Positions 7,502 through 27,280 of a DNA stretch of 27,680 nt are shown here, in pieces (position 1 is the first letter of the stretch; every line of letters starts with the position of its first letter). The stretch is from a virus, in the IMG/VR virus record IMGVR_UViG_3300037245_000661, positions 1 through 27,680 of that record. One strand, 5' to 3'. Position numbers and translations under genes: made by a program. The notes beneath the pieces were generated by a model. It ran no database searches and was not told the origin of the DNA. It was given only the letters and a program-made list of their open reading frames with translations.

Positions 7502-7516
7502 GAAGAAAAGGTTTCG

Positions 7517-7831: not shown

Positions 7832-8386
7832 TTAGCTTACGTTTCCGTCAATGATGCAGGAGAACGCACTGAAAGTGCAAATGTCAGTAGCAGCTCCAAG
7901 ACTGAACGTTGCCAGCGTACCAGGATTCGCAAGGACCATGTAGGTACCTGCCGCGACATCCCCATCGGTGATATAAACACCATCAAGAGCAGCGACTAGA
8001 TCTACCGGACAAACACCGCCGACCCAGAACCAACCATACTCGCCATCGGCCATCGTTGCCAATGCAATAGCGATAGGACCGGTCAAGGTGCATTCGCCAC
8101 CGTCATTCGTGACAATGTGATACCCACCCTTAGCGGCAGATTCGGTAATGTCCTGGCTGCAAAGACCTTTTGCATCCACGGCAGCGGCAGATCCCTTTTC
8201 GTACTTCAGGTACATCAGCCTAGACCAACCCTTGTTTGTGTCATCATAGATAGCACGTTTCGTACCAACAGAAAAATTCGCGGTAAGTCCGTTTGCAACC
8301 CATGATGCCGGATTAGGCCCGTTATCTACTTCACCAGGCCAGTTATCAATTAGATAAAAGTTGCCATCATCAATTCCAACTGTCAT
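7832..8386 (-). CDS. Putative head decoration / capsid-associated structural protein
   Basis: This 184-residue protein starts at ATG 8386 with AAAGGAG eight bases upstream. It is rich in Ala, Gly, Thr and aromatic residues. It contains GYHIVTNDGGECTLTGPIA and EYGWFWVGGVCPVDL, then a C-terminal beta segment ending SCIIDGNVS. The small-residue composition, beta character and location directly after the major capsid gene are typical of capsid stabilisation or decoration proteins. No enzymatic motif, signal peptide or membrane helix is visible. It was probably made in large amounts, given the strong ribosome site and close link to the capsid gene. Confidence 0.58.
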   Translation of the reverse strand: MTVGIDDGNFYLIDNWPGEVDNGPNPASWVANGLTANFSVGTKRAIYDDTNKGWSRLMYLKYEKGSAAAVDAKGLCSQDITESAAKGGYHIVTNDGGECTLTGPIAIALATMADGEYGWFWVGGVCPVDLVAALDGVYITDGDVAAGTYMVLANPGTLATFSLGAATDICTFSAFSCIIDGNVS

Positions 8387-8451
8387 AATAATACTCCTTT
8401 GATAAAAAAAACAAAACTTCCATTATTGTGACGTACATACACACATTCAAA

Positions 8452-8471
8452 CACCGACAGTTTAGCCGGTG
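8452..8471 (-). other. Stem-loop overlapping the capsid gene stop codon
   Basis: On the minus strand CACCGGC and GTCGGTG can pair (seven pairs, one a G-U wobble) around TAAACT, which contains the capsid gene's TAA. Only three T follow, so it is a weak terminator at best. It may protect the 3' end of a processed capsid mRNA. A T-rich stretch lies further downstream, just before the ribosome site of the next gene, at about 8402-8416. Confidence 0.3.
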
Positions 8472-9529: not shown

Positions 9530-9544
9530 TGTAAAATACTCCTG

Positions 9545-10366
9545 TTACTTTAGTGCTGAGTTCATCTGGTCGTATACTTCGTCCAGTGAACCGGCTTTAA
9601 TTTCATGTCCTTCGAGGCCAGTAAATCCGCCTCCGGACCCGTTGTCGGACGCAATGGTCGTTTTTTTACCACCTTTGGCTTTGACAGCATTTTTGTAACA
9701 CTTCTCCATGACGCGAGCAGCTCTTGCCGGGGATCCCGAAGGAACCTTGCCAGTCTTTGCTAGTTCCTGAAATTCCTTTACCGCAGCATTACGGACATCA
9801 GATCCGTAATCCTCGTCAAGATCTTTCAGTAATTCGTTATAAGCTGCCGTTTTCGCATTGTCCGCCTGGTTCTTCTTCCTGGCGTCACGATCGTCACTTT
9901 CAAACTTGTCTTTTGCCTTACCAAGTTTGTTAATCGCATCGTTAGACTTTGCCAGTGCAGAACGTAAATCGTTGACAACTTGAGCCATTGCAGGATCGCT
10001 TGACTGTTCGACATCGATCTCCTCAATATTGAGATCCTTATCGGCGAGTTTGCTTTCCGCATCGGCCAACTGCTGTTTAAGACTTTCGTTCTCGGAGTTG
10101 GCAGATTCAAACTTAGCTTCTGAAGCCTGTGCCTGTTCTCTGGATCTGGCCGCATTGGCTTTTTCCTGATCTGCCTGCTGTCTTACCTTGTCAAATTTTT
10201 CTGTTTCAGCCCTTTCAGCTTCCTCGATCGCCTTTTGGACAGCATCGGGATTGTTTCCCTCTGTGCCTTCACCATCGAACCGAACAAACGGTCCGTAGAT
10301 CTTATGCAATCTTTGAAGTTTAGCTGACATTTGACTACCCTTAAAACTACCCATTACATTCAACAT
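9545..10366 (-). CDS. Capsid scaffolding protein
   Basis: This 273-residue protein starts at ATG 10366 (MLNVMGSFKGSQ), where GGAAG stands five bases upstream; the in-frame upstream start at 10393 has no such site. A short N-terminal region is followed by a long Ala/Glu/Lys/Gln-rich segment (about 40-165) with strong heptad character, hence coiled coil. A charged region and a C-terminal Gly-rich linker lead to DEVYDQMNSALK, a likely capsid-binding helix. Low complexity, high charge, coiled-coil content and position directly upstream of the capsid gene identify a scaffold, which shapes the procapsid and leaves before maturation. No serine-protease triad is visible. Confidence 0.8.
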   Translation of the reverse strand: MLNVMGSFKGSQMSAKLQRLHKIYGPFVRFDGEGTEGNNPDAVQKAIEEAERAETEKFDKVRQQADQEKANAARSREQAQASEAKFESANSENESLKQQLADAESKLADKDLNIEEIDVEQSSDPAMAQVVNDLRSALAKSNDAINKLGKAKDKFESDDRDARKKNQADNAKTAAYNELLKDLDEDYGSDVRNAAVKEFQELAKTGKVPSGSPARAARVMEKCYKNAVKAKGGKKTTIASDNGSGGGFTGLEGHEIKAGSLDEVYDQMNSALK

Positions 10367-10491
10367 TTTTGCTTCCTTTCGTTTGAGCAACATGTCTCTT
10401 TCCGGAAATCTCTATATCTCGGTTAGCAGTTTGGCACATGGCCCTTTTGCCACCTCGACTTAACAATACCGCTACGAGCGATACTGGATTC

Positions 10492-10674
10492 CTACAATAT
10501 TTTCTCCGTAGCCTTCTTTCTGTCCTTAAGATGTTTCTTAGCAGCTTTCAATAGCGGCTTATTCATTTTGATTTCTTCGGCAGTAATCAAAACATTAGCA
10601 GCGTCTTCCGCTGTAATTCCATAAGACCTTGAAGGAACCTTGTACTCTTTTGCTTGTACTCCGATACCGGGCAT
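10492..10674 (-). CDS. Small conserved-looking protein between portal and scaffold
   Basis: This 60-residue basic protein (MPGIGVQAKEYKVP) has AAGGAG eight bases upstream of its ATG, beginning at the stop of the portal gene, so the frame is credible. The middle SYGITAEDAANVLITAEEI looks helical and the C-terminus (AAKKHLKDRKKATEKIL) is Lys-rich and amphipathic. I do not recognise a family. Similar short genes between portal and scaffold in other phages are unassigned or minor head proteins. A 98-base gap without any gene that I can support follows before the scaffold start codon region at 10394. Confidence 0.55.
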   Translation of the reverse strand: MPGIGVQAKEYKVPSRSYGITAEDAANVLITAEEIKMNKPLLKAAKKHLKDRKKATEKIL

Positions 10675-10685
10675 AACTAAACTCC

Positions 10686-12737
10686 TTACTGTTGTTGTTG
10701 TTGTTGTTGACCGCCTGCCAACTGTGCTGCCTGCATCATAAGCTGATACAATGGCATGATCGGTGGGAAGGTTTGAGCTAACGCCTGTATTTCTTCAGGT
10801 GGAATCTGTGCCACTTGTTGACTTAACTGAATAAACTGTATAAATAGTTGATTGCCCTGGTGCCTCTCGAGAAGCTTCTCGCGGTTCGGGATATTAAGAA
10901 TCCGCAGCATGTCAGGGAGCATCGGGTTTGCGATCGCTTCGCCCATGATCTTATAGGCTTCCATGTGATCCCTTTTTCTGGTTTCAATGTCGAATGGTAG
11001 AGTAGATCCCGGCTCGACATTGACATCGAATCGAACATCCAATGCACCTTGATCGATCTTTGTAATGATCTGGCCATCATCCGATACCGCTCTGGCGATA
11101 TAACCAGGCTCATAGTTCGCCTGGCATAATTCGGCCACAAGTGAAGCGGTATCGTCGATGAAGTTATCAAGGAAGATTGCTTGCAACGCAGTATTGTCGT
11201 GACTGTTAACGTCCAGCTTTGCCGCTTCGGTTGCACTTTGAGTTCCCTTCTTCGAAGCCCCTCGAGCAACATCCTGCATAAACATCGAATCGGCGATGTC
11301 CTGCTGCATGATCTGTGCCAGTGCGATCGTAGCAGGCTCCATGTTTCCATAGTCCATCTTGCGGATCCTATCGATCTTACCCTTTGCAGCGATGATAATT
11401 TTGGAAATCCCGAATTTGGTGGTACGGATCTTGCCTTTTCGATCTCTGGCAAGTGCCCCAGCTTCAACAATAGTTTCTTGATCGGCTGCAAGCCTTACCC
11501 GATGCATCATTGCGGAAACGGTCAAGTTAAGAGCATCGTTGTTGTTACGAGACATCTCGACAGCATTACTACCCTGCCACATATGCGGAAGAAGGTAGTA
11601 TGGCATAACCGTAAACGGCCACTTGCTGTATTTGTACTTCTGGTCCTCTATTTTTGGATTGAGTATAGTCCTGCCAATACGAAGCACGAACCGGCCATTA
11701 GGATAAAGTGGCTCGGTGTACTCGTTCGTTTTCTGTGTAGGCCACTCCTTGAGTTCTTCGTTTGTTTCTGGATCCAAATAAAGACCCGTAATCTCCTCCA
11801 GTACTACCTTGCCCTGGTCGATCAGATCCTTAGCAGGTACGTTATCATTTATTACGACTTCCTTTTCCTCGTAATCCTTCCAATATATTTCCTCGATGTC
11901 GTTATACCGCTGTTTCTCGCCAGCTCCGGAACCTGCCGAGTTGCCAGTTTTATTAAGACCTTTGTTAAGAACAAGGTCAACGAGCAAGTTACCCTTTAGT
12001 CTTTTCTCTTCGGAAGTTGTCGAGGCTTTCTGGTCCTCATATATAATCATATTGCCGCTTGCAAACTTCGCATCGTCCTCGGTGAACGCAGCAGCTTCGA
12101 TCTGTTCTTTATAATCCGGCCATCGATTTTGTGCCCACTCCATTTTCACTCTACGGAATGTACCGCAGTTCTCAGCCTCATCCATAGAATCGGCAGACGG
12201 ATCACACCAGAAACACGCAGGATGTATAAACTTTTCCCTTGCACTACCCAGCCATTTCTTAGCTTTGGGATCCCATCGAACCTTGTCCTCCCAATACGTC
12301 TTACCAACCATGTAACCCATTAACGCAGCGTCGAGTATACCCATGATCAGCTTTTGCCGCATCTTCATCTCGTACGGTGACTTCCAAAGGTACTCGAGAT
12401 GTTTCGCCCACCATTCAACATACTCCGGAACACCTTCCTCCTCGTTATCCCATGCGAAGGTGTTTATCTTCGGATCGTTCTTAGCCAGCTTTGCGATGTT
12501 CTGCATCATCAACGGGTATATGCGGTTAATGATAACGTACTTCCATCCCTCTTTAGGCTTTAGATCCTCGAGCTGTTGACCCCACGCATACTTGAAAGCG
12601 GCAAGCCACATACACTTCCATTGGTTCGTGACAACCATACCAGCATTGCGGATCTCGTCGAGGAAGTTGTTCAGGTCCGGAGACAGATCTTCTTCGGTAG
12701 TGCCGTCATCATGGTTTGTACTTTGTATTGGATCCAT
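10686..12737 (-). CDS. Portal protein
   Basis: This 683-residue protein starts at ATG 12737 with AAGGA seven bases upstream. It has the large podovirus-like portal layout: a helical clip and wing region (NQWKCMWLAAFKYAWGQQ, YVIINRIYPLMMQNIAKL), then a long segment with Trp-rich sequence, HPACFWCDPSADSM and a C-terminal crown/barrel region. The stem is suggested by MEAYKIMGEAIANPM and later helices. Twelve subunits would form the ring at the capsid vertex through which DNA enters and leaves. It follows TerL with three intervening genes and precedes the scaffold, the standard order. The C-terminus ends in seven glutamines encoded by a CAA repeat. Confidence 0.85.
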   Translation of the reverse strand: MDPIQSTNHDDGTTEEDLSPDLNNFLDEIRNAGMVVTNQWKCMWLAAFKYAWGQQLEDLKPKEGWKYVIINRIYPLMMQNIAKLAKNDPKINTFAWDNEEEGVPEYVEWWAKHLEYLWKSPYEMKMRQKLIMGILDAALMGYMVGKTYWEDKVRWDPKAKKWLGSAREKFIHPACFWCDPSADSMDEAENCGTFRRVKMEWAQNRWPDYKEQIEAAAFTEDDAKFASGNMIIYEDQKASTTSEEKRLKGNLLVDLVLNKGLNKTGNSAGSGAGEKQRYNDIEEIYWKDYEEKEVVINDNVPAKDLIDQGKVVLEEITGLYLDPETNEELKEWPTQKTNEYTEPLYPNGRFVLRIGRTILNPKIEDQKYKYSKWPFTVMPYYLLPHMWQGSNAVEMSRNNNDALNLTVSAMMHRVRLAADQETIVEAGALARDRKGKIRTTKFGISKIIIAAKGKIDRIRKMDYGNMEPATIALAQIMQQDIADSMFMQDVARGASKKGTQSATEAAKLDVNSHDNTALQAIFLDNFIDDTASLVAELCQANYEPGYIARAVSDDGQIITKIDQGALDVRFDVNVEPGSTLPFDIETRKRDHMEAYKIMGEAIANPMLPDMLRILNIPNREKLLERHQGNQLFIQFIQLSQQVAQIPPEEIQALAQTFPPIMPLYQLMMQAAQLAGGQQQQQQQ
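10689..10709 (-). repeat. CAA trinucleotide repeat coding the portal poly-Gln tail
   Basis: Six CAA codons and one CAG run in a row just before the portal stop codon and give a Gln-7 tail. Perfect trinucleotide tracts can slip, so length could differ among relatives. The tail is beyond any fold I can infer. Confidence 0.9.
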
Positions 12738-12747
12738 CGGGAAGTCC

Positions 12748-13263
12748 TTAGTAACCGGTTATAATTGCATAAGCAGACGAAGCCGTTGTAGATCCACCGT
12801 CAAGATCGATCTCACAGAACATGTTCTCGATATGAGCTTTATCAAACTTAACCTGACAAATACGGTTATTAGCACTGTCAAGGATTTCGGCAACGTCAGA
12901 AAGCAAGCCACCTGTAACAGTGATCGTATCTGCCCACTTACCATTAGCGATAACGGTGGTCTTGTCGATCGGATCCAGGGTACATACTTGCGTACCAAGA
13001 GTTATGATCCCACTAAGCAATAGCTGGATTGGACCGTTTGCCCTGGTCCTGCCATAAAGTTTGTAAGCGAAATCCTCGTTAGCAGCATCAGTACCATGAA
13101 ACGCGATAACAACTCCATTCGCATCCTTGAACGTAGAGCTTGCCAGATTAAAGGTTCCGGTTGACGGCCAATCACCGTAATCGAAAGTGGTGATAGCGGA
13201 ATCGCTGGACGATACGGCTGCCCTTAATGCCTGCCACGCTATTCTTGCTGTGTTGAGTATCAT
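12748..13263 (-). CDS. Beta-rich virion-type protein of unknown function
   Basis: This 171-residue protein starts at ATG 13263 with AGGAG seven bases upstream. A short helical start (ILNTARIAWQALRAAV) is followed by beta-rich sequence: FDYGDWPSTGTFNLASS, an aromatic stretch, TITVTGGLLSDV, then VKFDKAHIENMFCEID and a Gly-Tyr end. It looks like the beta-sandwich proteins often encoded near phage portal genes and found as minor virion components. No signal peptide, membrane segment or catalytic motif is present. It lies between the deacetylase-like gene and the portal, so expression with late genes is expected. I cannot name the family. Confidence 0.5.
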   Translation of the reverse strand: MILNTARIAWQALRAAVSSSDSAITTFDYGDWPSTGTFNLASSTFKDANGVVIAFHGTDAANEDFAYKLYGRTRANGPIQLLLSGIITLGTQVCTLDPIDKTTVIANGKWADTITVTGGLLSDVAEILDSANNRICQVKFDKAHIENMFCEIDLDGGSTTASSAYAIITGY

Positions 13264-13289
13264 CTTAAATCTCCTGTCTTAAAAGTTAA

Positions 13290-15011
13290 TTACCACCTTC
13301 TGCGGTATCTACCTCTATACCCGCCTGTTTTACCCGAAGAAATTCCTTGTGTGCTTATTAGATCCTGATATGTGATAACGTCTAAGGTGCCTGCATCTAC
13401 TTTTGTTTTTACGTAATCAACTAATGCTTCAAATTGAGTTTGATTCAGATCGTAGCCAGCCCCCGCCGTACCACCAAGAGTACCACCTGCCTCGATGTTA
13501 TGAATAAACAGTACGCCTAAGTCGCCATTGGCAACAACAGCATCAACGTAAGCTTTCATATTGGTATCAAATGATGCATTACTAGGAATTTGTGTAGCCG
13601 CTCCCCACCACGGTTCTGTACTGACAGTCGGAAATGTTAGCTTTCCAACTATGCCTTGCGGTGACGTGTTAGCTGTGGATGTAGCGAGTGAAGTATAAGG
13701 CCCCATCCTCCGCCAGGGCGTAGTACCTCGTATATGATTGAAATACTCTCGCATAATCTTAATATGACTTTCGGATTGTATATAACCTGTACCGCCTGGT
13801 AAGGCTAGATAGTCCGCACCCTCATAGAAACCATTATCATACATCCATGTTTTAATACCTTCGCACCACTGTCGAACACGTTCTTCAGAAGCAAAAACAT
13901 CTTTCTCGCCTTGAGTAGTTCCAAAATAAGCTCCTGACCAATGCCCACAAGGAAGCATCCCAAGATTGGCTATTTCTCTGACCTGTGCGATCGTCATTCG
14001 TTCAAGATTGCCAGCACCGATACCAATGGTGTTACCCTCAATGTAATTGATCGAACGAAATCCGTTAGCAGACAGGTACGGAGCTGCAATCGTTCTGTGT
14101 GGAAGGTATGCATCGTCGAAAGTGAACATGAACGCACCTTTTGTTCTGCCCGTAGATGTTACTTTAATACTATCGAAGTAAATATTAAATGCGGTTTGAT
14201 CTTCCGTTGCATGTGATTTATAGAGAAAACCCACCATATCGATAGCCGTAATATCTGGACTACTCGATTGGAGGAACTGGCTTAATGGTATATTAACTTC
14301 ATGCCATCCTGCCGCTAAGGGTATACTGACCCTGTAAACAGATCCACTTATGGTATTGCTTGAGCTTAGAATAGCAGTCCACTCCTGGGGATAAGTCGTT
14401 GAGCCAAATGCAGAGTATGGCCTATCTGAATAGTACCGGACTGTAAGAACACTATCAGTTGCATCGAAAGCAGTAACGGAAAGTTGCAAAGCTGCTAATT
14501 CACCAGCACCCGAATCAACCCCATCAATAGCAGGGATCGCCCATTTACATCCATAAAAGTGCCTACTACCGAGAAACGCCGTAACATCTGAACTTGTAGA
14601 AGTCCATACGGCTGTGAAAAGAGAATCTAATACATCGGTTTGAAAAATCGTTTTAACGGAATAAGTGGCCTTTGCGGTTTCGGTGAATGTTTCCGCTGTG
14701 TATGAAGAAGTTATAACCACTTCATTCGCAGATACGCTTTCAACCTTAAAACCCCTGTTGTAATTTGTTGTCCCTAATATCGAAATAACATCACCAGCAA
14801 TAAACGGATGTCCGGTGATAGGTATGCCAACTTCGCCACCGCCTGCATTTCTGGCCGCTGCTGAATTAATCTGAAATTCAGCAGTATCAAAAGAACCTAA
14901 CATATTAGCTGGTCTTAGACCGGGATCAGATAGACCGGATGTCTCGTACTTGAACGCACCGAAACATATACTTGTTAGTATGACCATTAAGCATATCAAT
15001 ATTTTTTTCAT
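13290..15011 (-). CDS. Secreted polysaccharide deacetylase-like (NodB/CE4) multidomain protein
   Basis: This 573-residue protein starts at ATG 15011 with AAGGA eight bases upstream. Residues 1-19 form a Sec signal (MKKILICLMVILTSICFGA). A beta domain like phage tail modules follows (GHPFIAGDVISILGTTNYN), then a jelly-roll-like region (about 125-285), then a NodB-like domain: TFDD (297-300), helix and strand, GMLPCGHWSG (351-360), LALPGGTGY (402-410) and VLFIHNI (500-506). CE4 enzymes use Asp and an H-x-x-x-H pair; here H357 is present but position 361 is Ala, so metal binding may be altered. The end is basic (GGYRGRYRRRW). It may remodel host capsule, peptidoglycan or chitin-like polymers, or be a catalytically weak binding module. 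Its GATC density is near random, unlike its neighbours. Confidence 0.72.
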   Translation of the reverse strand: MKKILICLMVILTSICFGAFKYETSGLSDPGLRPANMLGSFDTAEFQINSAAARNAGGGEVGIPITGHPFIAGDVISILGTTNYNRGFKVESVSANEVVITSSYTAETFTETAKATYSVKTIFQTDVLDSLFTAVWTSTSSDVTAFLGSRHFYGCKWAIPAIDGVDSGAGELAALQLSVTAFDATDSVLTVRYYSDRPYSAFGSTTYPQEWTAILSSSNTISGSVYRVSIPLAAGWHEVNIPLSQFLQSSSPDITAIDMVGFLYKSHATEDQTAFNIYFDSIKVTSTGRTKGAFMFTFDDAYLPHRTIAAPYLSANGFRSINYIEGNTIGIGAGNLERMTIAQVREIANLGMLPCGHWSGAYFGTTQGEKDVFASEERVRQWCEGIKTWMYDNGFYEGADYLALPGGTGYIQSESHIKIMREYFNHIRGTTPWRRMGPYTSLATSTANTSPQGIVGKLTFPTVSTEPWWGAATQIPSNASFDTNMKAYVDAVVANGDLGVLFIHNIEAGGTLGGTAGAGYDLNQTQFEALVDYVKTKVDAGTLDVITYQDLISTQGISSGKTGGYRGRYRRRW

Positions 15012-15012
15012 G

Positions 15013-15207
15013 TTACGTTTCCTTCTCTAAAAGTTCAAACTCCGCTGCATCACTAGACTGTTTATTTAATGTTGGTTCCTCGCCGTTATTGGCCTGGCGT
15101 ATTGCACAACTGAAACGGAAGCCAGTCCTAAACCCCTGCAAAACCAAACCGGCACCGATCAAGATACCAATTATCATTATTACCACGCTAATAATTATAT
15201 CATTCAT
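15013..15207 (-). CDS. Small single-span membrane protein (possible holin or accessory)
   Basis: This 64-residue protein has one strong transmembrane segment near the N-terminus (DIIISVVIMIIGILIGAGLVL) followed by a basic stretch (FRTGFRFSCAIR) and an acidic, soluble C-terminus. The positive-inside rule places the tail in the cytoplasm. ATG 15207 overlaps the TerL stop by eight bases; GTG 15213 is an alternative with better spacing to GAGGA. It ends one base before the deacetylase start. T7 has its holin beside the terminase genes, so a lysis role is possible, but a single helix and no known motif leave it open. Confidence 0.5.
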   Translation of the reverse strand: MNDIIISVVIMIIGILIGAGLVLQGFRTGFRFSCAIRQANNGEEPTLNKQSSDAAEFELLEKET

Positions 15208-16975
15208 ATTCACTCATATCCTCAAACATCGATTCGTTGTCATCATCCCCATCGTCTAAGTCGTCCTCGTCATCGTAGGTATTCGCAATCATCAATTTCC
15301 CTTGAACAATTCCCGGCGTTTCTTTATTAGCCCACTCATGGTTATCATCAACCGGACAACGCTTATGCAGTTGTAATGCTCCACCTAACGCGATAATACA
15401 ATCGTCGTGCTCGCCTTTGCGAGCTTCCCATTTCCCCACCGCATTCTTGATACACACTCGCATCTCATCAATGAACCGAATATCAAAGACAACCAGATCG
15501 CCTTTTCTGGTTTCCTCCTCGAGATCTACAAACATCGGCTTACGTGTTGCGGTCGTAGTTTTCCAGCCGAGCTTCTTTGAATCCTCAACCGAATCAGTCT
15601 CCTCTTTGGTTTCGCGATAGTAAATATACTCGTATTCGTCACGTTTAAACGTATCAAGGACAGACTGTCCGATTGAGTTCATTTCTGGCGAAGCCCACGC
15701 ATAATTATAAAACTTCGCTGCCATCAGCATTTGATCGCCATAGACGATCGTATCCGGCCTTCCGTAGTAAGTAGCCGGTACATTGAAAGCATTACGGTCA
15801 AGGACACAGGCAACGGATCTATCTTGCGTACTCTTTGGATCGTTAGGATCTGCCAAACATCCTTCAGCAACATCGCCAAACTCTACGTACGAATGATTCG
15901 GCTCGGGCCATTCCCATATCGCCCAACTATTAATACTTCTGGTAACGATCTTGTACTTGACCGTTCTGCCATCCATGTAAAACTCAACATACATCTTTGG
16001 TTCTTTACGGCAGCGGGTTTCCATGATGTCAAGGAAGGTAGTCTTAAAGACCATGTTACCAGTGGCTTGGAAAGCCTGTCGAGCTGTTACCGGATATTCC
16101 TGCTTAAAGAGATCTATGTCGGATCCACATCGGTTCTGGTATTTCAGGAAGGCCCAAAAGATCTGTTCGGGCGTAGGTGATTTACCTATCGACAGCAAAT
16201 CACGAACATATTCCTTAAAGTCCTGGGTAATTGGCGGATCGGACATGCCTTTAGGTAATGCCGTCTGGTATTCCGGAAAGATCATCCAGCTTAGAAAGAT
16301 CGGAAGATAACCGCGATAGTCATGCGGATCACGCTTCAATCTTTTAACTGCATCCCAATACTCATCATGGAAGGCACCGCCGACACCGTTCGCTGTCGAC
16401 TCTTGAGCAACCATTGTACCAGGCTCGTCCGGAACTTCCTGTAATAACGAGTTAAGCTGTACTTTTGCATTAGCCCAAAACGCTACCTCTGTCGCATGAA
16501 CATATTGAGTAGTACCACCACGACCGAGAATCTTCTTACCGGCTGTCTGGCATAACATGCTCGATCGATGTGGAGTTTGATACTTAATCTCTTTAGCGTT
16601 TGACTTGTCGATCGCCAGCACATTATCGGTTGGCATTTCATCTTGAAAGGTCTTACACATCCTAAAGACCTTTTCAGTTGCATCCTTGTCGGCAGACACC
16701 ACGCAACCATGCCGGTTCATATTCCGGTTGATCGCTTCGAAGATACAAGCCTCGATATACGTCGAGATCCCTTCTTGCCTGGCCTTCAGAATGATAAGCA
16801 TTACAGGAAGATTATTCTCGATCTGTAACTGCATTGCGTTATTAACTTTTAATTGAGCGATGTTGTGATCGAAATCCACTAACTGACTTTTTTTGTTTAC
16901 GATTTTCAGGTTGGCTTGCTGCCAGCCTAAACTCGTTTCGCTATACGACTTCGCTATCGAGTCCTGTTCCGGCAT
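15200..16975 (-). CDS. terL: Terminase large subunit (DNA packaging ATPase/nuclease)
   Basis: This 591-residue protein starts at ATG 16975 with GAGGA eight bases upstream. The ATPase domain shows KARQEGIST (64-72) as Walker A variant, YVHATEVAFW (158-167) as the Walker B region and QESTANGVGG (191-200) as coupling motif C. The nuclease domain has FGDVAEG (366-372, Asp368), a second acidic site near ASPEMNS (428-434) and GEHDDCIIAL (521-530, Asp524/525), matching the RNase-H-type acidic triad. The C-terminal 24 residues are almost all Asp/Glu. It cuts concatemers and drives DNA into the procapsid through the portal. It overlaps TerS by 35 bases. Confidence 0.95.
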   Translation of the reverse strand: MPEQDSIAKSYSETSLGWQQANLKIVNKKSQLVDFDHNIAQLKVNNAMQLQIENNLPVMLIILKARQEGISTYIEACIFEAINRNMNRHGCVVSADKDATEKVFRMCKTFQDEMPTDNVLAIDKSNAKEIKYQTPHRSSMLCQTAGKKILGRGGTTQYVHATEVAFWANAKVQLNSLLQEVPDEPGTMVAQESTANGVGGAFHDEYWDAVKRLKRDPHDYRGYLPIFLSWMIFPEYQTALPKGMSDPPITQDFKEYVRDLLSIGKSPTPEQIFWAFLKYQNRCGSDIDLFKQEYPVTARQAFQATGNMVFKTTFLDIMETRCRKEPKMYVEFYMDGRTVKYKIVTRSINSWAIWEWPEPNHSYVEFGDVAEGCLADPNDPKSTQDRSVACVLDRNAFNVPATYYGRPDTIVYGDQMLMAAKFYNYAWASPEMNSIGQSVLDTFKRDEYEYIYYRETKEETDSVEDSKKLGWKTTTATRKPMFVDLEEETRKGDLVVFDIRFIDEMRVCIKNAVGKWEARKGEHDDCIIALGGALQLHKRCPVDDNHEWANKETPGIVQGKLMIANTYDDEDDLDDGDDDNESMFEDMSEYE

Positions 16976-17639
16976 TTTCAGCGTCCTCGATTCTTTTCTT
17001 CACTTCTTCTAATGACAGTGTTGTATTTGTCTCGGTTCGTTCGGTAGGCTTACCCTCGTTGAGATCCGCTCGTTTTTCGGAGGTTTCACCAACGGAGGAC
17101 GGGTCTTTAGTATTACCACGATCAATACCGGCCTGTTTAATCAATGCTTTCAATCTATCCATCCGGTACATATCTTTGAGAATTGTTGCTTTAAGAATTG
17201 GATCGAGCTTACAACCGGTGACAGTCTTTATTTCTTTTGGATCTTTGCCGTCACTATATACCGTTTCGGTTACTTCGGAATACTTCTCATCAAGTTTCAG
17301 CTTCCCCTTGTAGTCTTTGTCAATCGATGAAAACTCTAAATCGTCCAGTTCCTCCTGGTTCTTTTTCTCGGCAGCCCTGATCCGTGTACTGTTCTCGAGT
17401 GAATCAATTAAGAGGTCTGCCGCTAACGCTCCTATCCGACGATACTTCGCATTGCGATACTCTGCCCGCTTCTTCTTTGCATCGTCTAACTTTTGTGGAA
17501 AGTCCTTCATGCGTTTGGTAATAGTGGTCGAGCAAACACTGAATGCGGTACCGATGTCGGCAAGCTGCTCTCCATCAGAATACATTAAGAACATCCTTGC
17601 CTGATCTGTGCCAAACCCGTTATCATCGTTTTGCGTCAT
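16941..17639 (-). CDS. Terminase small subunit (probable)
   Basis: This 232-residue protein lies directly upstream of TerL and overlaps it by 35 bases. N-terminal residues 14-45 form a helix-turn-helix of the terminase-small type (DQARMFLMYSDGEQLADIG then VCSTTITKRMK). A charged, coiled-coil-like middle and a C-terminal acidic helix (SLEEVKKRIEDAE) could mediate oligomerisation and TerL contact. Small terminase subunits form rings that recognise the packaging site, often inside or next to their own gene. Its ATG 17639 has no good Shine-Dalgarno sequence, unlike almost all neighbours, so its translation may be low or the start may differ. Identification rests on HTH plus position. Confidence 0.72.
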   Translation of the reverse strand: MTQNDDNGFGTDQARMFLMYSDGEQLADIGTAFSVCSTTITKRMKDFPQKLDDAKKKRAEYRNAKYRRIGALAADLLIDSLENSTRIRAAEKKNQEELDDLEFSSIDKDYKGKLKLDEKYSEVTETVYSDGKDPKEIKTVTGCKLDPILKATILKDMYRMDRLKALIKQAGIDRGNTKDPSSVGETSEKRADLNEGKPTERTETNTTLSLEEVKKRIEDAENAGTGLDSEVV

Positions 17640-17801
17640 GCTATCAGTATAACGTAGGTTTTTGGGGCTATAAGGAATGGCGGTCGAATTGTGTTAAGCT
17701 GGGTAATTCCCAACTTCTTCAACTTCTTCAACATGAAAATAGTGGGGTATTCTGCTTATTTTATTCTTGACATGGTTTTCGTAAAGCGGTGAATTGGACG
17801 A
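17640..17801. other. Largest intergenic gap, with direct repeats and a small palindrome before TerS
   Basis: These 162 bases contain no gene that I can support. They hold 2.4 copies of the nonamer CAACTTCTT (17711-17732) next to the imperfect palindrome TGGGTAATTCCCA (17700-17712). A weak promoter-like pair on the minus strand, TTTACG and TAAAAT 16 bases apart (17780-17785 and 17758-17763), would drive the terminase genes. Candidate packaging recognition site, candidate promoter, or both. Confidence 0.3.
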
Positions 17802-18017
17802 TTAGTTCGAGATCTTCGCCAGATCCTCCTCGATCTCACTACGGAAGTAAAACACCTTACCGGTTAGCATTTTGTGCGACCTGGGATATATTGACATAAC
17901 ATTAAACCTGTCTAAGCCACGCCAATACCGCAACGTACCTTCTGGTATATTGAACTCCTCGGACACTTGCTTCGATGTTAACCGTTCGTTTGGGTTCTTT
18001 GGTTTTGTATCATCCAT
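17802..18017 (-). CDS. MerR/excisionase-like helix-turn-helix protein
   Basis: This 71-residue protein (MDDTKPKNPNERLTSKQ) starts at ATG 18017, with AAGGAAAAGG upstream. Residues 13-34 (LTSKQVSEEFNIPEGTLRYW) form a winged-helix HTH of the HTH_17/AlpA-excisionase class. A wing follows (RSHKMLTGKVFYF) and a short helix (SEIEEDLAKI). Members act as DNA-bending excisionases or small transcription regulators. No integrase is visible here, so regulation of the late operon is the more economical idea. It lies directly upstream of the gap before TerS and could bind the repeats there; that is inference. Confidence 0.75.
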   Translation of the reverse strand: MDDTKPKNPNERLTSKQVSEEFNIPEGTLRYWRGLDRFNVMSIYPRSHKMLTGKVFYFRSEIEEDLAKISN

Positions 18018-18032
18018 GATTGTACCTTTTCC

Positions 18033-18293
18033 TTATGGGTCTATGTATATATCTTCAACATCAACGTCTTGCATCATAAGCTGGCCGGTCCTCCCTGGCT
18101 GATCTCCTATAAACTTGCAATATCGCCATACGGTACCATCGATGAAAGACATCTTAGCTCCAAGCTCTCCCGCAATCATCGCCTGCGTTTCATTCAATAC
18201 CAACGGCACCGCCGCACCGGTACCGGCCAACGCTGTCGGAGCGATCGCAGCAGCTCCGCAAGTTTTTAAGAATGATCGTCGGGATATGGTCAT
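18033..18293 (-). CDS. Small exported protein with a twin-arginine (Tat) signal
   Basis: This 86-residue protein has a textbook Tat signal: SRRSFLK (4-10) matches S/T-R-R-x-F-L-K, then an Ala-rich moderately hydrophobic core and TALA (20-23) before GTGAAVP. ATG 18293 follows AAAGGAG by eight bases. The mature part is only about 60 residues: a helix around NETQAMIAGELGAK, then beta-like FIDGTVWRYCKFIGDQPG and an acidic end (DVDVEDIYIDP). Tat exports folded, often cofactor-containing proteins across the cytoplasmic membrane. I know of no standard phage family with this arrangement. The mature part faintly recalls small beta decoration proteins, but the signal argues for periplasmic or surface action. 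Confidence 0.75.
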   Translation of the reverse strand: MTISRRSFLKTCGAAAIAPTALAGTGAAVPLVLNETQAMIAGELGAKMSFIDGTVWRYCKFIGDQPGRTGQLMMQDVDVEDIYIDP

Positions 18294-18315
18294 ATCTTAT
18301 ACTCCTTTAATATCT

Positions 18316-18341
18316 GGCAGGGCCACCGAAGCAGCCCTGCC
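18316..18341 (-). other. Strong hairpin with a UUCG loop upstream of the Tat-signal gene
   Basis: On the minus strand GGCAGGGCTGC and GTGGCCCTGCC form an 11-pair stem (two G-U pairs) closed by TTCG, giving the extra-stable C(UUCG)G tetraloop in RNA. No U tract follows on either strand, so this is not a standard terminator. It sits 22 bases before the ATG of the Tat-signal gene and after the stop of the membrane protein. It may be an mRNA processing or stability element that sets relative expression. Confidence 0.65.
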
Positions 18342-18381
18342 ATTGCCCGCACTGCTTACCATTCATATTTACAAAAGTAAT

Positions 18382-18978
18382 CTATCCATTCTCGATGTCT
18401 TCGGAGGAATCTTCGGTAGGGTGTTCAGTATCGCTTGCACCTGCTGCCTCGGCACCAGGGATCTGACCTTCAGGTGGATCCGCTTCTTTGCCCGGTTGTT
18501 GTCCACCTTCGTCCTTACCTGTCAAGCCAATAGCCTCGGCAGTTTCGATCGGACCAGACTTGATTTCCGCTTCCGGTACTGGATCCTTTACCGGCGGTCC
18601 AGTATTAAGCATACCAGAATCGTGTATGTTCTTCGTGATGTTCTTTATGATATAACCTAAGTAGCCAGTGGCCGACTGAAGAACACGAACACGTAAGTTC
18701 GGATCTTCGGCAGCTCCTTTGATTACGTCAGCAACATCGTCGACCGATACAGTCTCGAGTAGATCGGCAACCAACATATTCGTCGGGTTGTCGGTTTCGA
18801 GATATTGCTTCATGGCCTCCGTACCATAATGATCGAGGATCTCTTTGATCTGATCTTCTGTTTCAGTTTCAGCGATACTCAACTCCAGGTTCTGTGTGTC
18901 TATATCCGGATCGGATATAAGCCTGGTGACGATGATCGCTCCGAGCTGGATTGCCAGCAACAATAATACGGTTTCCAT
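18382..18978 (-). CDS. N-terminally membrane-anchored acidic protein
   Basis: This 198-residue protein starts at ATG 18978 (METVLLLLAIQLGAIIV), with AAGGAAG six bases upstream; an earlier in-frame GTG at 19002 would not place a better ribosome site. Residues 3-20 are a single hydrophobic anchor. Residues 30-115 look helical and acidic (ETEDQIKEILDHYGTEAMKQ). From about 125 onward the chain is rich in Pro, Glu, Gly and Asp, likely disordered. No catalytic motif is seen. It lies between the cysteine hydrolase and the Tat-signal gene, in an envelope-directed cluster. It could be a spanin-like or holin-partner protein, but I have no family match. Confidence 0.62.
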   Translation of the reverse strand: METVLLLLAIQLGAIIVTRLISDPDIDTQNLELSIAETETEDQIKEILDHYGTEAMKQYLETDNPTNMLVADLLETVSVDDVADVIKGAAEDPNLRVRVLQSATGYLGYIIKNITKNIHDSGMLNTGPPVKDPVPEAEIKSGPIETAEAIGLTGKDEGGQQPGKEADPPEGQIPGAEAAGASDTEHPTEDSSEDIENG

Positions 18979-19008
18979 AATACACTTCCTTTTTCTTAAC
19001 ACGATTAA

Positions 19009-19617
19009 CTATTTAATCCGTGTGTCCGGACCAATCAATACGTAACTCCTTAATACATACTTATCTAGCTTTGCCTGCTTGTGATCTGACCTGGTGTTGT
19101 CAGGCTCCCACTCTGCCGGGTTTATACATTCTTTTACCAGGTGACAATCCCTGAACAAGTGCAACACCCACATAGTACAAAAGAACCAATCATCGGTGTC
19201 GATGTTAGTGCTTGCTTTGACGAACCGCCTACTATCCCACACCGATCGGAGCAACATCTTAAAGCCCTGCTTCTTAGTAGGATCTGTGTACGGAGTTCCG
19301 AGATAACACTCGATGCAGAGCTTCGCGACTTTATAGGCATTCTCACGAGCTTCCTTATCAGTGATGATAATCTTGCGGATCCATACCTTGCCAGGATAGC
19401 CGATGATCCAATCGATGAACGGTGTAATTTGTACGCCATTCGTACCGCCTCGCTGCGTCGATTCGGTAACATACAGTATGCCGGTCTTAATATCACGATA
19501 CAACATCGCCGTATGCCCGATGTACTTCCAGAAGCCATAGCCCTCGCAGTTGATAATATAGAACGTGTTCAGGTCATTCCATACTTCAGCCAATGATATA
19601 ATCGGTTCCTGCTTCAT
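19009..19617 (-). CDS. Permuted NlpC/P60 (YiiX-like) cysteine hydrolase
   Basis: This 202-residue protein starts at ATG 19617, two bases after the stop of the preceding gene, with GGGGGA upstream. It shows the circularly permuted papain-like order: His in YIGHTAMLYRD (32-42, His35), a polar Glu in YVTEST (49-54), YLGTPYTD (105-112) and the nucleophile Cys in DDWFFCTMWVLHLF (142-155, Cys147). This fold includes amidases, peptidases and acyltransferases acting on cell wall peptides or lipids. No signal peptide is present, so if it acts on the cell wall it needs a holin or delivery with the particle. A role as an endolysin is plausible but not shown. Confidence 0.75.
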   Translation of the reverse strand: MKQEPIISLAEVWNDLNTFYIINCEGYGFWKYIGHTAMLYRDIKTGILYVTESTQRGGTNGVQITPFIDWIIGYPGKVWIRKIIITDKEARENAYKVAKLCIECYLGTPYTDPTKKQGFKMLLRSVWDSRRFVKASTNIDTDDWFFCTMWVLHLFRDCHLVKECINPAEWEPDNTRSDHKQAKLDKYVLRSYVLIGPDTRIK

Positions 19618-19619
19618 GG

Positions 19620-20129
19620 TCAGTCATCCCCCAATTCACCATCGGGATCCTCGATCTCGTCGTCCATGACCGGACCGCCGTCGGGAGCGGTTGGCTCGGC
19701 AGCGTTGGGAACTTCGACATCAGTAATAATCTCGATGGCTTCGTGTCTCAACTTATCAACCTCATAATCAGCCAGTACCTTTGTCAAGGTTGCGAGATAG
19801 ATCTCGTCGGTAGGGTTGACCTTGATCTGTTCGATCTGATCTTTGGCAATACCGAATTGCCTCTTTGCACCTTCGAGAGCTGCTGTCCTTGCTGGACAGT
19901 CTGGCAGATCCTTCAGACGATGGATCAGATCGTTCAACTCGTTAAGACTTTCATTGCTGCCTTCACGATCACGAGCAAACATCGTCTTCATTGCATCAAG
20001 ACGCATATGCATTACCACCTGGTTACGGTGGAGCATTTCAGCATCCGATACTTCCGCATCTTCAACTTCTTTCCTAAAACTGTTTTCCGCAAGCTTCGGG
20101 CTTGCTGCCGTTTCCTTGCTATCATCCAT
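19620..20129 (-). CDS. Acidic helical protein of unknown function
   Basis: This 169-residue protein starts at ATG 20129 (MDDSKETAASPKL), where GGGAAG lies about eight bases upstream. A longer in-frame start at 20171 would overlap the previous gene and is less likely. The centre is strongly helical (MHMRLDAMKTMFARDRE, then LNELNDLIHRLKDLP and LEGAKRQFGIAKDQIEQI). The C-terminal 35 residues are acidic with Pro and Gly. No family is recognised. It is followed closely by the cysteine hydrolase and may be expressed with it. A coiled-coil or adaptor protein would fit. Confidence 0.6.
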   Translation of the reverse strand: MDDSKETAASPKLAENSFRKEVEDAEVSDAEMLHRNQVVMHMRLDAMKTMFARDREGSNESLNELNDLIHRLKDLPDCPARTAALEGAKRQFGIAKDQIEQIKVNPTDEIYLATLTKVLADYEVDKLRHEAIEIITDVEVPNAAEPTAPDGGPVMDDEIEDPDGELGDD

Positions 20130-22405: not shown

Positions 22406-22846
22406 TTACATCCATGAAATAAACCTATAAGCTGAATTTATATTCCGTAACGCTGTCTCGCGGTCCTTGCCTGGAAGGTCGACAGCGATCGTCGCATGAC
22501 CGTTAATTCTGGGGATGAGATCTCCGTCAGAATCGGTCAGGAAACAGCGAGCTGCGAACACTGGTTTTGTATGCTTTTTCCTGATGATTTCAGCCGCTTC
22601 GATCCAAGCGAATCTTAGCCCGTTTTTACCGTCATTTGCTCGGAAGTTCTTGAAATCCATATCCATACTATGATGATCGAGAACGATGCGGACAGAATCG
22701 CGGAATTTGGCCGATTTGAACCTCGGATCTTTGGCCGTTTTAGACTGGACATTGCTGGTCTGATTACCCGTTCTGGACAGGGCAGACATAGCAACTTCCT
22801 TATTGTTACTGTATAGCGTTTTATAGTGGTCCTGTATCTTACCCAT
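22406..22846 (-). CDS. Protein of unknown function next to the origin-like repeats
   Basis: This is a 146-residue basic protein from ATG 22846. An internal ATG at 22789 (MSALSRTGNQTS) has AAGGAAG five bases upstream, a better ribosome site than the weak GTGAG at the first ATG, so a 127-residue form may be the real or an additional product. It contains DPRFKSAKFRDSVRIVLDHH and a beta-rich C-terminal half (PVFAARCFLTDSDGDLIPR). No family match. It directly follows the primase and the repeats, one of which covers the second ATG, so it might be autoregulated or replication-linked. Confidence 0.58.
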   Translation of the reverse strand: MGKIQDHYKTLYSNNKEVAMSALSRTGNQTSNVQSKTAKDPRFKSAKFRDSVRIVLDHHSMDMDFKNFRANDGKNGLRFAWIEAAEIIRKKHTKPVFAARCFLTDSDGDLIPRINGHATIAVDLPGKDRETALRNINSAYRFISWM

Positions 22847-23108
22847 TTTAACTCACTTTTTTTTTTAAAAAACTAACCAATTTGTTGGACTATTGCTATG
22901 TCTGCTATGTCCAAAATGAATAAATCGTTATTCTTTTATATTTTACACCAGTTTTTCTGGACACTTAGAACATCAAGTTGCTATGTCCATCGGTGTCCAA
23001 ATCGGAGTTGCTATGTCCAAACTCCATACCCTCTTGATATTTAATACCCTCATACGCTGTGACTTTTTTCCCATTAATGAGAGGACGGCAACTTTTGGAC
23101 ATAGCAAA
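22782..23108. repeat. Iteron-like GCTATGTC repeats: candidate replication origin
   Basis: GCTATGTC occurs on the plus strand at 22895, 22904, 22980 and 23010, and on the minus strand at 22785-22792 and 23098-23105. Extended forms are GTTGCTATGTCCA (22977 and 23007) and a perfect 13-base inverted pair (22782-22794 with 22893-22905). The spacer 22847-22964 is very A+T-rich with long T/A tracts. The same DNA word is read as AMS and as GHSN in the genes, so selection seems to be on DNA. It spans the primase 3' end and the next gene's start. Confidence 0.6.
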
Positions 23109-25460
23109 ACATTTTTGCACTGTCTGCCCAAAGTGGCTATTATTCTTCGGACGCCGCCCATTATCCGCACACCATTCTTTGTACTTTCTGTACACATCGG
23201 ATTTAGTTAGATATTCGTCAAAATCCGGATTTACCTCTAAAAATTCATTCACAAACAGCCTCGCGGAGTTACTTTCGTCGCGGTACTGATTTAGCTTTTC
23301 TTGGCATGTTTTCGGCACAATAAAGCCATCGTTTTTAATGAGCAATTCGCGGCCTTCAATCATCCAGTTTAGTATGCCTGAAAGCTCCTCTGGTTCCTGT
23401 AATTCTCGGGCGAGGTTTTTGTTTTGTTGATCTTCTGGAATCTGCACATCGAAGGGCAGGTAGAGCATACGCCGCCATATCCCATCGCTCGGATCTCTTA
23501 TGATCGGCAGCTCATTTGTTGCAAACATAAGCTTTGCGGTTGGGTATGCGGAGAAGGCTTCGTTGTACAATTGTCTCCATAGCATCTTATCGCCGCCGAC
23601 ATACTCCTTGATAATGCTTTCGACGCTTGACTCGATGTCCCTGGTGTTCTCGTTCGACATGTTTACTGCCTTGCCGTACGTACTGAAGATCTTGGAGGTA
23701 TCGGCGAAGCAGGCCAACGGTACGTTTGACACGTTGTCCTTGCCGATAGCCGCCGCGAGTGTATCGAAGAATACGAATTTGCCGTTTGCACCATCGCCGA
23801 CACATAGGAGAAACTTTTGGTACTTGGTTGTTGACATGAGCAAGTATCCTGCCCACATCTGCATTAGTTGCATGATCTCTGTGTCGCCGCCTGTGATGTC
23901 CCATAGGAATCGTCCCCACTTATCACTGATCGCTTTCGGATCATAGTTATACATCATATAGTTAAACGTATAGAACTGGTCGGACACTGGCACTGTCTTG
24001 CCGGTCACGAGGTCCAGAATACAGTTTTGCATAGCAAGAACATCTTCAGTGCTTAGAGATCCATCGAGCGAGCAAGGAGCCTTCTGTCCTGGTAACAGGT
24101 GAACATCCTGCATATCTCGCAGCCATAACATGATCGACTTGATAAATGTTGGTGTTTTGTGTTTCTTGCTGGCCCTTACATACTTAGACTTGCCTTCCTT
24201 GTCCCTCGTCTTGAACTTACATATCAGCAGGAACCTGCGGATGTACGACTCGATCTCGTCGCTGTCCTCGACACGTTGATACTTATCCTTATAATAGATA
24301 GACCACTGATCGATCGAGTTGAATCGGTGCCGGACATTGCCGTCCTTCTGGCTCCACTTCTCGAAGTGGTAGGCGATCGTGTCAGGGTTATCGTCTGGAA
24401 GCTGGAGGAAGCCCTTGTTGTTCGCTGTACCAGGTGGCGGCACCTCGGGTACATATAGCTTCGTATCTTGAAGTATTATCTCGAATTGTTCTTTGGTATG
24501 TTCGGCTAGATAATCGTACAGGTCCTTACCATGATCCTCGGTGTATTTATAAGGGAGCCTGATTACCCGCAACTCTTTAGCTACGCCGCTGATCGCGTTG
24601 GCAGCTTTGACGGCTCCGCCTTCGTCGATCGTTACCTTACCAGTTTTCTTATTCTTTACTGGACCGCCGTTGCCAGCTGCATCAGTATCGAATATTATAT
24701 GCACGATCAAGCCCTTAAACATCCCAAGCCACTCATCTCGCCAGGTGCCGGCTCCGTTGGATCCCGCTACTGCTATGTACCCGAACTCTAAGGCTTTTAC
24801 TGCATCCTTCCAGCCCTCGGCGAAGATGATCGTATTCTCTTTATACGACTCGGTTGCATGGTGAACACCGACCAGGCCCGCTTTGGATCCTGTTAATAGT
24901 GGGTACTTCTCAAGCTTCTCGCACCACTTACCATTGTTATCTTTGTATTTGATAGGGCAATCCTGCCCATCGATCCCAACACGGATCCACCCATTAACAT
25001 GATCGTAGTCCTTCGGATTGTACGCTGGAATAAGGAATTCACGTTTGCCTTTACGCTTCTCTGGTTTGAGTAACATAAACGCTTTGGGATCCAAGCCTTT
25101 AACCTCACAGAACGCGAGAAGATCCTTTTGTGAGATCTCCTCACGTTCCGATGGTTTGGTCTTTGGAGATCCTTTGGCTGGTGGTGGCTTCTTCCTGTTG
25201 GTTTCAGCAGCATCTATCAGTCCATGCTCCTCAAGGAGCTTGAACGATGCTTGTGCATCCATACCCATGATCCTGCGTAGGAGGAGGTACGGATTGCCAC
25301 CACCGCCACCGCATCCGGTGAAGCACTTCCAAAGCCCATTGTCGGACCTGATGGATAGATGGTCCTTCTTACCGCACACAGGACAGCCGAATAAGAGATT
25401 GATCCCTTCTGTCCTGATGAGCGTAAGCCCGAGTTGCTCGGTCATAAATCGTTTTATCAC
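22965..25460 (-). CDS. Primase-helicase (CHC2 zinc finger, Toprim, SF3/D5-type helicase)
   Basis: This is an 831-residue protein. Residues 26-50 form a CHC2-type zinc finger (Cys26, Cys29, Cys46, Cys50). Toprim signatures are FAEGWKDA (213-220) and FDTDAAGNGG (257-266). The C-terminal part is a phage/plasmid P4/D5-type SF3 helicase: GDGANGKF (555-562) as Walker A, a NMSNENT region (600-606) and KLMFATNELP (643-652), then WRRMLYLPF (662-670). A winged-helix-like end follows. The usual Walker Ser/Thr after Lys561 is Phe here. It would prime and unwind DNA at the origin. ATG 25460 (MIKRFMTEQLG) places the zinc finger as in relatives. Confidence 0.9.
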   Translation of the reverse strand: MIKRFMTEQLGLTLIRTEGINLLFGCPVCGKKDHLSIRSDNGLWKCFTGCGGGGGNPYLLLRRIMGMDAQASFKLLEEHGLIDAAETNRKKPPPAKGSPKTKPSEREEISQKDLLAFCEVKGLDPKAFMLLKPEKRKGKREFLIPAYNPKDYDHVNGWIRVGIDGQDCPIKYKDNNGKWCEKLEKYPLLTGSKAGLVGVHHATESYKENTIIFAEGWKDAVKALEFGYIAVAGSNGAGTWRDEWLGMFKGLIVHIIFDTDAAGNGGPVKNKKTGKVTIDEGGAVKAANAISGVAKELRVIRLPYKYTEDHGKDLYDYLAEHTKEQFEIILQDTKLYVPEVPPPGTANNKGFLQLPDDNPDTIAYHFEKWSQKDGNVRHRFNSIDQWSIYYKDKYQRVEDSDEIESYIRRFLLICKFKTRDKEGKSKYVRASKKHKTPTFIKSIMLWLRDMQDVHLLPGQKAPCSLDGSLSTEDVLAMQNCILDLVTGKTVPVSDQFYTFNYMMYNYDPKAISDKWGRFLWDITGGDTEIMQLMQMWAGYLLMSTTKYQKFLLCVGDGANGKFVFFDTLAAAIGKDNVSNVPLACFADTSKIFSTYGKAVNMSNENTRDIESSVESIIKEYVGGDKMLWRQLYNEAFSAYPTAKLMFATNELPIIRDPSDGIWRRMLYLPFDVQIPEDQQNKNLARELQEPEELSGILNWMIEGRELLIKNDGFIVPKTCQEKLNQYRDESNSARLFVNEFLEVNPDFDEYLTKSDVYRKYKEWCADNGRRPKNNSHFGQTVQKCFAMSKSCRPLINGKKVTAYEGIKYQEGMEFGHSNSDLDTDGHSNLMF

Positions 25461-26025: not shown

Positions 26026-27102
26026 TTACTTAAAGTAATATTTCAGTTCCTTTGCTGCTCTGGTAATGGCGGTGTATCGCCATCGTTTAGCGTCCCACAG
26101 ACGCTCCATTTGTTCATCGATCACCAGGACCTTATCCCACTCAGATCCCTGTGACTTATGGCAGGTGATACAATACCCATAGTCAGCAAACACGATGTCG
26201 CGGTTATCCGGTACTCCTCGAGCGTCGATCGGCTTGTGTCCGAATTGCTCTTTATAAAGAGGAAGCCCAACCTTGCGGCCATCATCAGTCACACAATTGG
26301 CTACAATAGTACGCCCTTTTGTGTTACCCAGCGATTCTATGGTGAGAATTTGTCCATTAAACACGCTGAAATTCTGGTTGTTGCGTAAAACGATGATCTT
26401 CTCGCCGGGATTTAACAGTCCTGTATGCTTTCTTATATTGCGGACTACTCTATTCAGTTTCAGCCTGGTAGCATTGAAACCACATAGGATAATATCAGCC
26501 CATTCAAGATCATGTACTGGCACGGATGATACTGCGTGATTGAGTATCACCTCATCGGTGTACTTAATATCCGGATCCAGCCAAAACTTATCCAGGCGAA
26601 TGTCCGTAGCGAACTGGATGATCCCGTTACCTTCCGCTTGCCGATGGATCTGGTTGAGTACAACGTCAGGCTTATGCATCAAGCGGGGATCCTTACCGAC
26701 CGGTTCAAGCTGACCAGGATCACCGAGCATAACGATCGGCTTCCTGTACGACATTATGTCCGTCCATAGATCTGTTGACACCATCGATCCCTCATCGATC
26801 AGGAACCACTTACCATCGACGTACGGCTTCTTATGGAACTTTGCACCATCATAGTCGTAAATGGTCCGGTGGATCGTTTGAGCGTAGATCCCCTTCTGTG
26901 TGAGCCTGTACGCTGCCTTGCCGGTAAACGCACAGGGCATACAGTTACTAAGCTGCTCGACGATATGTCTGGCTACGGTAGTCTTGCCGGTCCCTGCGTA
27001 ACCACCGAGCCTAAAGACGGGCTTACCCTCCTTGACAGCTTTGACAGCCGTGTCGACAGCAGATTGTTGTTCGGTTGTAAGTGTTTCGTTATTCGTCAGC
27101 AT
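26026..27102 (-). CDS. RecD/Dda-like SF1 DNA helicase
   Basis: This is a 358-residue protein. ATG 27102 (MLTNNETLTTEQQSA) has AGGAGG nine bases upstream and is favoured over the longer frame that would start at 27225 within the previous gene. SF1B motifs are in order: Walker A GGYAGTGKTT (33-42), Walker B LIDEGSM (101-107), motif III GDPGQLEPVG (127-136), motif IV NQIHRQ (150-155), motif V TCHKSQGSEWD (313-323) and motif VI YTAITRA (343-349). The protein is compact like T4 Dda. It probably unwinds DNA in replication or recombination. It overlaps the upstream gene by 14 bases. Confidence 0.9.
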   Translation of the reverse strand: MLTNNETLTTEQQSAVDTAVKAVKEGKPVFRLGGYAGTGKTTVARHIVEQLSNCMPCAFTGKAAYRLTQKGIYAQTIHRTIYDYDGAKFHKKPYVDGKWFLIDEGSMVSTDLWTDIMSYRKPIVMLGDPGQLEPVGKDPRLMHKPDVVLNQIHRQAEGNGIIQFATDIRLDKFWLDPDIKYTDEVILNHAVSSVPVHDLEWADIILCGFNATRLKLNRVVRNIRKHTGLLNPGEKIIVLRNNQNFSVFNGQILTIESLGNTKGRTIVANCVTDDGRKVGLPLYKEQFGHKPIDARGVPDNRDIVFADYGYCITCHKSQGSEWDKVLVIDEQMERLWDAKRWRYTAITRAAKELKYYFK

Positions 27103-27280
27103 CTTTGAAAACCTCCTGACATTCATCTTCGATCGGGCAATTATCGCAATCGTAAGCATTACAGTTAATGTTTCTGATGTACCACACTGACGTAACGTAC
27201 AAATGTCTCGCCAAGAGGATAACAATCAGTAACAGCACAAACACGAGCATTGCCAGCCATACAGGTATTAAGTTATTCAT
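27089..27280 (-). CDS. Small membrane protein with a C-terminal Cys motif
   Basis: This 63-residue protein overlaps the preceding gene as ATGA (start 27280). A hydrophobic helix spans about residues 4-24 (LIPVWLAMLVFVLLLIVIL). After it, Cys at 40, 45, 48 and 54 in an acidic tail could bind zinc or an iron-sulphur cluster or form disulphides. Topology is not certain; the N-terminus carries no charge while Arg25 follows the helix, suggesting the tail stays inside. Unknown function. Confidence 0.6.
   Translation of the reverse strand: MNNLIPVWLAMLVFVLLLIVILLARHLYVTSVWYIRNINCNAYDCDNCPIEDECQEVFKDADE

Follow-up and report, generated by a model that had tools for sequence, protein, structure and literature searches.

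The window, by which we mean the whole stretch of DNA analysed here, is an entire virus record of 27,680 bases from an uncultured phage. Its segment 22774-23107 is probably, with an estimated probability of about 0.83, a replication origin whose initiator is the primase encoded there. This reading rests on computation, from which we infer primase binding to the repeats, the site of melting, and origin activity. What was computed directly comprises the repeats, where they lie and that they occur nowhere else, as well as the AT-rich stretch, the fold of the winged helix, and the finding that such clusters recur at this place in relatives. The original prediction of a candidate phage origin is thus supported by the position of the repeats, the presence of one word across unrelated reading frames, the AT-rich flank, a P4-family primase with a winged helix, and the recurrence in relatives. 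The word is new as far as the searched collections go, and the layout is a known one.

The octamer GCTATGTC has exactly six matches, at 22785 (-), 22895 (+), 22904 (+), 22980 (+), 23010 (+), and 23098 (-), all within 22785-23105 and none elsewhere in the 27,680-base record. Because the virus record extends no further than the window, six is also the genome-wide count for this assembly, which had been proposed as a check, and no copy lies outside the cluster. The claim of six copies in about 320 bases, four on one strand and two on the other and beyond chance expectation, is confirmed by this listing and by simulation. Shuffled sequences contained on average 0.97 matches, and none of 100 reached six. 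GCTATGTC is the densest repeated 8-mer of the record, and even when both word and place were left free, the maximum for any 8-mer in 200 order-2 Markov sequences was four copies per 350 bp, compared with six here. The perfect 13-base inverted pair is exact (22785-22797 and 22975-22987). For the direct repeats described as 13 bases long and 30 bases apart, the spacing is correct and the length was slightly understated, as 22976-22989 and 23006-23019 are identical over 14 nt.

Although the octamer is a real word, it is not the best description of the unit, which is better written as an asymmetric iteron of about 12 bp, TTGGACATAGCAA, on the strand of the genes. Partial copies had been missed and are found as TGGACAGGGCA at 22774, TGGACACCGA adjoining 22980, and TGGACATTGCT at 22746. 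Because TGGACAGGGCA and TGGACACCGA lie 9-10 bp ahead of two copies, and the copies at 22895 and 22904 form a further pair, three sites look like tandem pairs. Written as iterons, the array comprises TTGGACATAGCAA at 23095-23107 (+), inside the winged-helix coding region; TTGGACATAGCAA at 23008-23020 (-), in the primase tail; ATGGACATAGCAA with the upstream partial copy TTGGACACCGA at 22978-22999 (-); the non-coding tandem pair TTGGACATAGC-AGACATAGCAA, 9 bp apart, at 22893-22914 (-); and a tandem pair of partial TGGACAGGGC followed by full AGACATAGCAA at 22774-22794 (+), in the start of a 146-aa ORF. The cluster spans -141 to +172 relative to the primase stop codon.

Between and around the iteron sets lies a stretch of 73% AT (22846-22979), which is a candidate melting region. 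It is the most AT-rich 134 bp of the record, a level reached by only 0.01% of windows of that length. Iterons flank this stretch on both sides, and the tandem pair 22895/22904 stands in its middle. No promoter-like or terminator-like elements overlapping the iterons were found beyond chance. A change of GC skew, which the original prediction had proposed to look for here, was not found at the iteron cluster, and skew is uninformative.

All genes of the region are on the minus strand, in the order helicase, 118-aa ORF, primase, and 146-aa ORF. The primase-helicase gene (22965-25460) encodes 831 aa and matches TIGR01613 ("P4 family") with E=4e-62, above the cut-off, as well as D5_N, DUF5906, RFX_DNA_binding, and Pox_D5 in Pfam and primases in PHROG. 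Its domains follow the order zinc-ribbon and TOPRIM-like N-terminus, D5_N/SF3 helicase, and C-terminal RFX/Pox_D5 winged helix. In Pfam, the N-terminus gives only a zinc-ribbon hint; it is tentatively read as TOPRIM because a separate protein of the closest relative, L071, is 42% identical to it and matches Toprim_3 at 1.4e-6. The best sequence match of the helicase part among solved structures is 7ola, with a chain named "DNA primase", which we take to be SaPI5 PriRep1 of Qiao et al. 2022, in agreement with PMC10516667. The winged-helix segment (about aa 734-808 by the Pfam RFX match; 23037-23261, minus strand) is the presumed origin-binding domain. Its AlphaFold2 model has a mean pLDDT of 87.5, and Foldseek aligned it with X-box-bound RFX1 (1dp7, TM 0.86 by target) and RFX5 (8zjr, TM 0.85). 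Judged by this fold match, the C-terminal winged helix is a predicted double-stranded-DNA-binding fold.

Upstream, in the same replication module, profile matches point to a RecD2/Dda-like SF1 helicase (26026-27225, minus strand). Downstream of the candidate origin, the 146-aa ORF (22406-22846, minus strand) is syntenic with L071, where the ORF at the same place matches it with a BLASTP E-value of 5e-12; it has no match in Pfam, PHROG, or phages. Single-protein searches returned no relatives of the helicase or of the 146-aa ORF, and comparing the region with phages in a nucleotide search for distant similarity gave no match. The structural genes in positions 1-20000 are highly diverged, with weak matches to a terminase, an SU10-type portal, a virion protein, and a gp53-like tail fibre C-terminus; most other ORFs tested there had no Pfam or PHROG match.

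Repeat clusters behind the primase gene were also sought in relatives. Among named phages with related primases (19-24% identity), read at a scale of 11-15 kb, the densest repeated word lies directly behind the primase in phiEG37K, TMW 1.591, PSA, A2, GMA4, and NatCom_29429, and a cluster is located there also in EV3, Sfi11, and Bacillus A9Y. It is absent from this place in the Vibrio and Shewanella phages examined. One of these loci, from Shewanella phage 1/44 (L068), carries AGGTGCCG nine times in a dense tandem repeat about 3.3-3.7 kb before the primase stop, in a region annotated as a hypothetical protein gene.

A broader set was taken from IMG/VR, with 80 further loci reduced to 51 by de-duplication and a cluster defined as a 9-mer occurring at least three times in 350 bp. 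Such a cluster is held by 34 of the 51 relatives, and the other 17 have none of three or more copies. The densest cluster falls within -200 to +400 bp of the primase stop in 21 of the 34, where 2.1 would be expected, and lies elsewhere in about a third of the cluster-bearing relatives. In 300-bp bins, the one directly after the stop (0 to 300) holds 19.5 of the 34, and no other bin holds more than 2. A comparison of gaps, serving as a control for intergenic bias with genes called by a simple longest-ORF scheme, found clusters in 20/32 gaps just 3' of the primase and in 8/182 other gaps of the same loci (Fisher P=6e-14). The iteron words differ from phage to phage, and their similarity tracks that of the primases (Mantel r 0.24-0.28, P 0.0005-0.001); in this covariation test, the words followed the winged helix no more closely than the helicase domain (partial r about 0). 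As far as sequence comparison goes, the conserved feature is the position of the repeat cluster, not the word. Of the expectation that relatives would keep copies at this site, the position stands and the word hardly does, with one good copy in a 55%-identical relative.

That relative is L071, the closest found, whose primase is 55% identical over aa 320-831. It carries one good copy of the word, TGGACATAGTAA at +38, accompanied by one or two degenerate copies; near its primase stop, no 9-mer occurs three times. In the alignment, the 22895/22904 pair corresponds to TTTGGACTGTGTGGACATAGTAA and the 22980 site to GATGGACAGGGTAA, and the other sites are eroded. L071 thus gives partial support and is at once the main weak point of the argument, as a full array of some word was hoped for at this distance. 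Its zinc/TOPRIM primase part and helicase/winged-helix part are two genes (1674-2594 and 4992-6578) about 2.4 kb apart, while the window has one fused 831-aa protein.

Searches for the word were extended to further collections. Among 2.9 million viral contigs, pairs of TTGCTATGTCCA or TGCTATGTCC turned up only in L008, L009, and L010, and nothing suggests that these form one family. The repeat of L010 is within coding sequence, that of L009 is a tandem array between genes of a GC-rich contig, and both were rejected as relatives. In L008 (IMGVR_UViG_3300023301_000185, positions 1-180), three tandem AAACCTTGGACATAGC copies stand at the contig start with the 12-mer kept, and a TTGACA/TATAAT promoter preceding a pair of terminase-like genes has TGCTATGTCCAAAG as its 17-nt spacer. 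This array could be an origin or an operator using the same 12-mer; it cannot be placed because it is truncated by the start of the contig, on which there is no P4-family primase.

An alternative is that the iterons are operators through which a phage repressor or activator controls the genes downstream of the primase, similar to mycobacteriophage stoperators. There are several copies around the start of the 146-aa ORF, and in the unrelated contig L008 the word in the promoter spacer is 100 bp from the three tandem copies, both of which would fit such a role. However, promoter-like matches in the window are at chance level and none overlaps the sites on the coding strand, all copies belong to one 320-bp cluster with none at other gene starts, and in relatives, clusters of different words recur at this position behind the primase. 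We therefore consider control by operators alone improbable. Nevertheless, the site may have a dual role as origin and operator, as in autoregulated origins.

It is less probable still that the word is left over from a repeat-generating element (REP/RAYT or tandem-repeat expansion) and does nothing for the phage. This idea draws on a scan of bacterial genomes for close TGCTATGTCC pairs, which yielded 42 loci; most are tandem arrays, and some resemble REP hairpins. Four of these, in cyanobacterial MAGs (L019, L036, L041, L047), have GGACATAGC arrays ending in GTAGGGACATAGCACTGCTATGTCC, a GTAG-footed hairpin that looks REP-like, and the array of one planctomycete (L039) lies next to what resembles, by eye (SNHFHL motif), a Y1/RAYT transposase gene. 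However, these loci were selected for having pairs, and one word was scanned without a control word, for which reason we treat all 42 as unrelated. The copies in the window form neither a GTAG-footed hairpin nor a regular tandem array; they occupy both strands at irregular spacing, with none elsewhere in the record, and clusters of other words take the same place in relatives. No Y1 transposase match was found among the window genes scanned. As further observations from the scan, a Chloroflexota locus (L053) has a GGACATAGC array with an end similar to GTAGGGACATAGCACTGCTATGTCC, and in L025, L038 (Stieleria), L039, L045 (Neorhodopirellula), and L029 and L032 (planctomycetes), GGGACATAGC is repeated and scattered over about 1 kb.

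The coding context of the copies bears on the remaining alternative. One copy lies in the winged-helix code (read as AMS), two in the last 17 primase codons (GHSN), two in the gap (22895 and 22904), and one in the start of the 146-aa ORF (AMS), so the codon positions bear out that the copies cross gene boundaries in unrelated frames, two of them being non-coding. The primases of most relatives end near the GMEF position, and the last 17 residues of the window protein extend past it. This tail, GHSNSDLDTDGHSNLMF (22968-23018, minus strand), is predicted to be disordered (pLDDT about 51), and a similar tail is present in L071. Being a predicted disordered run-on whose frame passes through two iterons, it accounts for the GHSN repeat without a cause at the peptide level. 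That the cluster is a repeat of the GHSN peptide and otherwise coincidence is scarcely credible: two of the six copies do encode it, ten codons apart, but two lie outside genes, another two are read as AMS in a different protein or domain, two are on the opposite strand, and the tail lies past the usual family end. The view that the DNA word rather than a peptide is conserved agrees with copies in different frames, in non-coding DNA, and on both strands.

For the origin reading, the following mechanism is proposed. The origin is very probably bound by the winged helix of the primase, in a layout like those of SaPI/PICI, Cch2, and P4. This domain would bind the TTGGACATAGCAA iterons, which are arranged in sets on the two strands about the AT-rich stretch at 22846-22979; loaded at the iterons, the SF3 helicase ring would then melt the AT-rich DNA, and the N-terminal primase part of the same protein would start synthesis. 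The RFX half-site (X-box consensus) is GTTRCY, and the GTTGCT half of the word is present in three of the six copies. We put forward a wider proposal tentatively and would not wager on it at even odds: phages with P4-family primase-helicases may keep an iteron cluster from the primase stop onwards while its word changes with the initiator. The primase frame could then run through the iterons, so that the disordered tail would be partly written by the protein's own putative binding sites, and since GTTGCT fits GTTRCY, the winged helix may read DNA in an RFX-like manner.

Through this analysis, an uncultured phage gains a candidate origin with defined putative sites and a candidate initiator. 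The part most useful to others is the positional rule across the family, which unifies scattered annotations. As a rule of thumb, a phage-specific repeated word would be looked for within 300 bp behind a P4/D5-type primase gene, and the origins of many uncultured phages could be predicted in this way. Comparing the resulting pairs of initiators and iterons could show how DNA is read by the winged helix.

Iterons beside a P4/D5-type primase had been described as a known origin design, and the precedents agree. The A2 and Sfi21-type origins were reportedly shown experimentally, by Moscoso and Suarez in 2000 and by Foley et al. in 1998. In the GenBank records of Lactobacillus phage A2 (AJ251789) and Streptococcus phage Sfi11 (AF158600), the rep_origin starts 28-29 nt inside the primase 3' end. 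These phages resemble the window in having a related primase, an annotated rep_origin at this place running downstream, and repeated words around AT-rich DNA. They differ in their iteron words (ACGGGAGGAT and GTAACTAA), and their primases are only about 20-24% identical.

PICI/SaPI origins directly follow the 3' end of the initiator gene (rep) and have an AT-rich region between two sets of iterons (PMC6092414), and SaPI Rep helicases recognise the origin via their C-terminal domain (PMC7581432). The window shares the origin 3' of the initiator gene and the iteron sets around AT-rich DNA. In contrast, SaPI primases are of the AEP type (PMC7581432), while that of the window appears to be TOPRIM. 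The window also encodes terminase-, portal-, and tail-fibre-like proteins and thus represents a phage; a PICI/SaPI satellite island was ruled out, given these structural genes in the same record. Cch2 of SCCmec is a D5-type helicase that, in vitro, uses its C-terminal domain to bind direct repeats situated downstream of the gene encoding it (PMC7581432). The type of helicase and the repeats downstream of the gene are as in the window, but Cch2 has no fused primase and only three short iterons, and it is not a phage protein. In P4 alpha, the winged helix binds the origin repeats, and the protein unwinds and primes (PMC4234260). P4 gp-alpha has a different repeat word and, apparently in the same order as the window protein, a TOPRIM-type primase (tentatively assigned in the window via the L071 homologue), an SF3 helicase, and a C-terminal winged helix.
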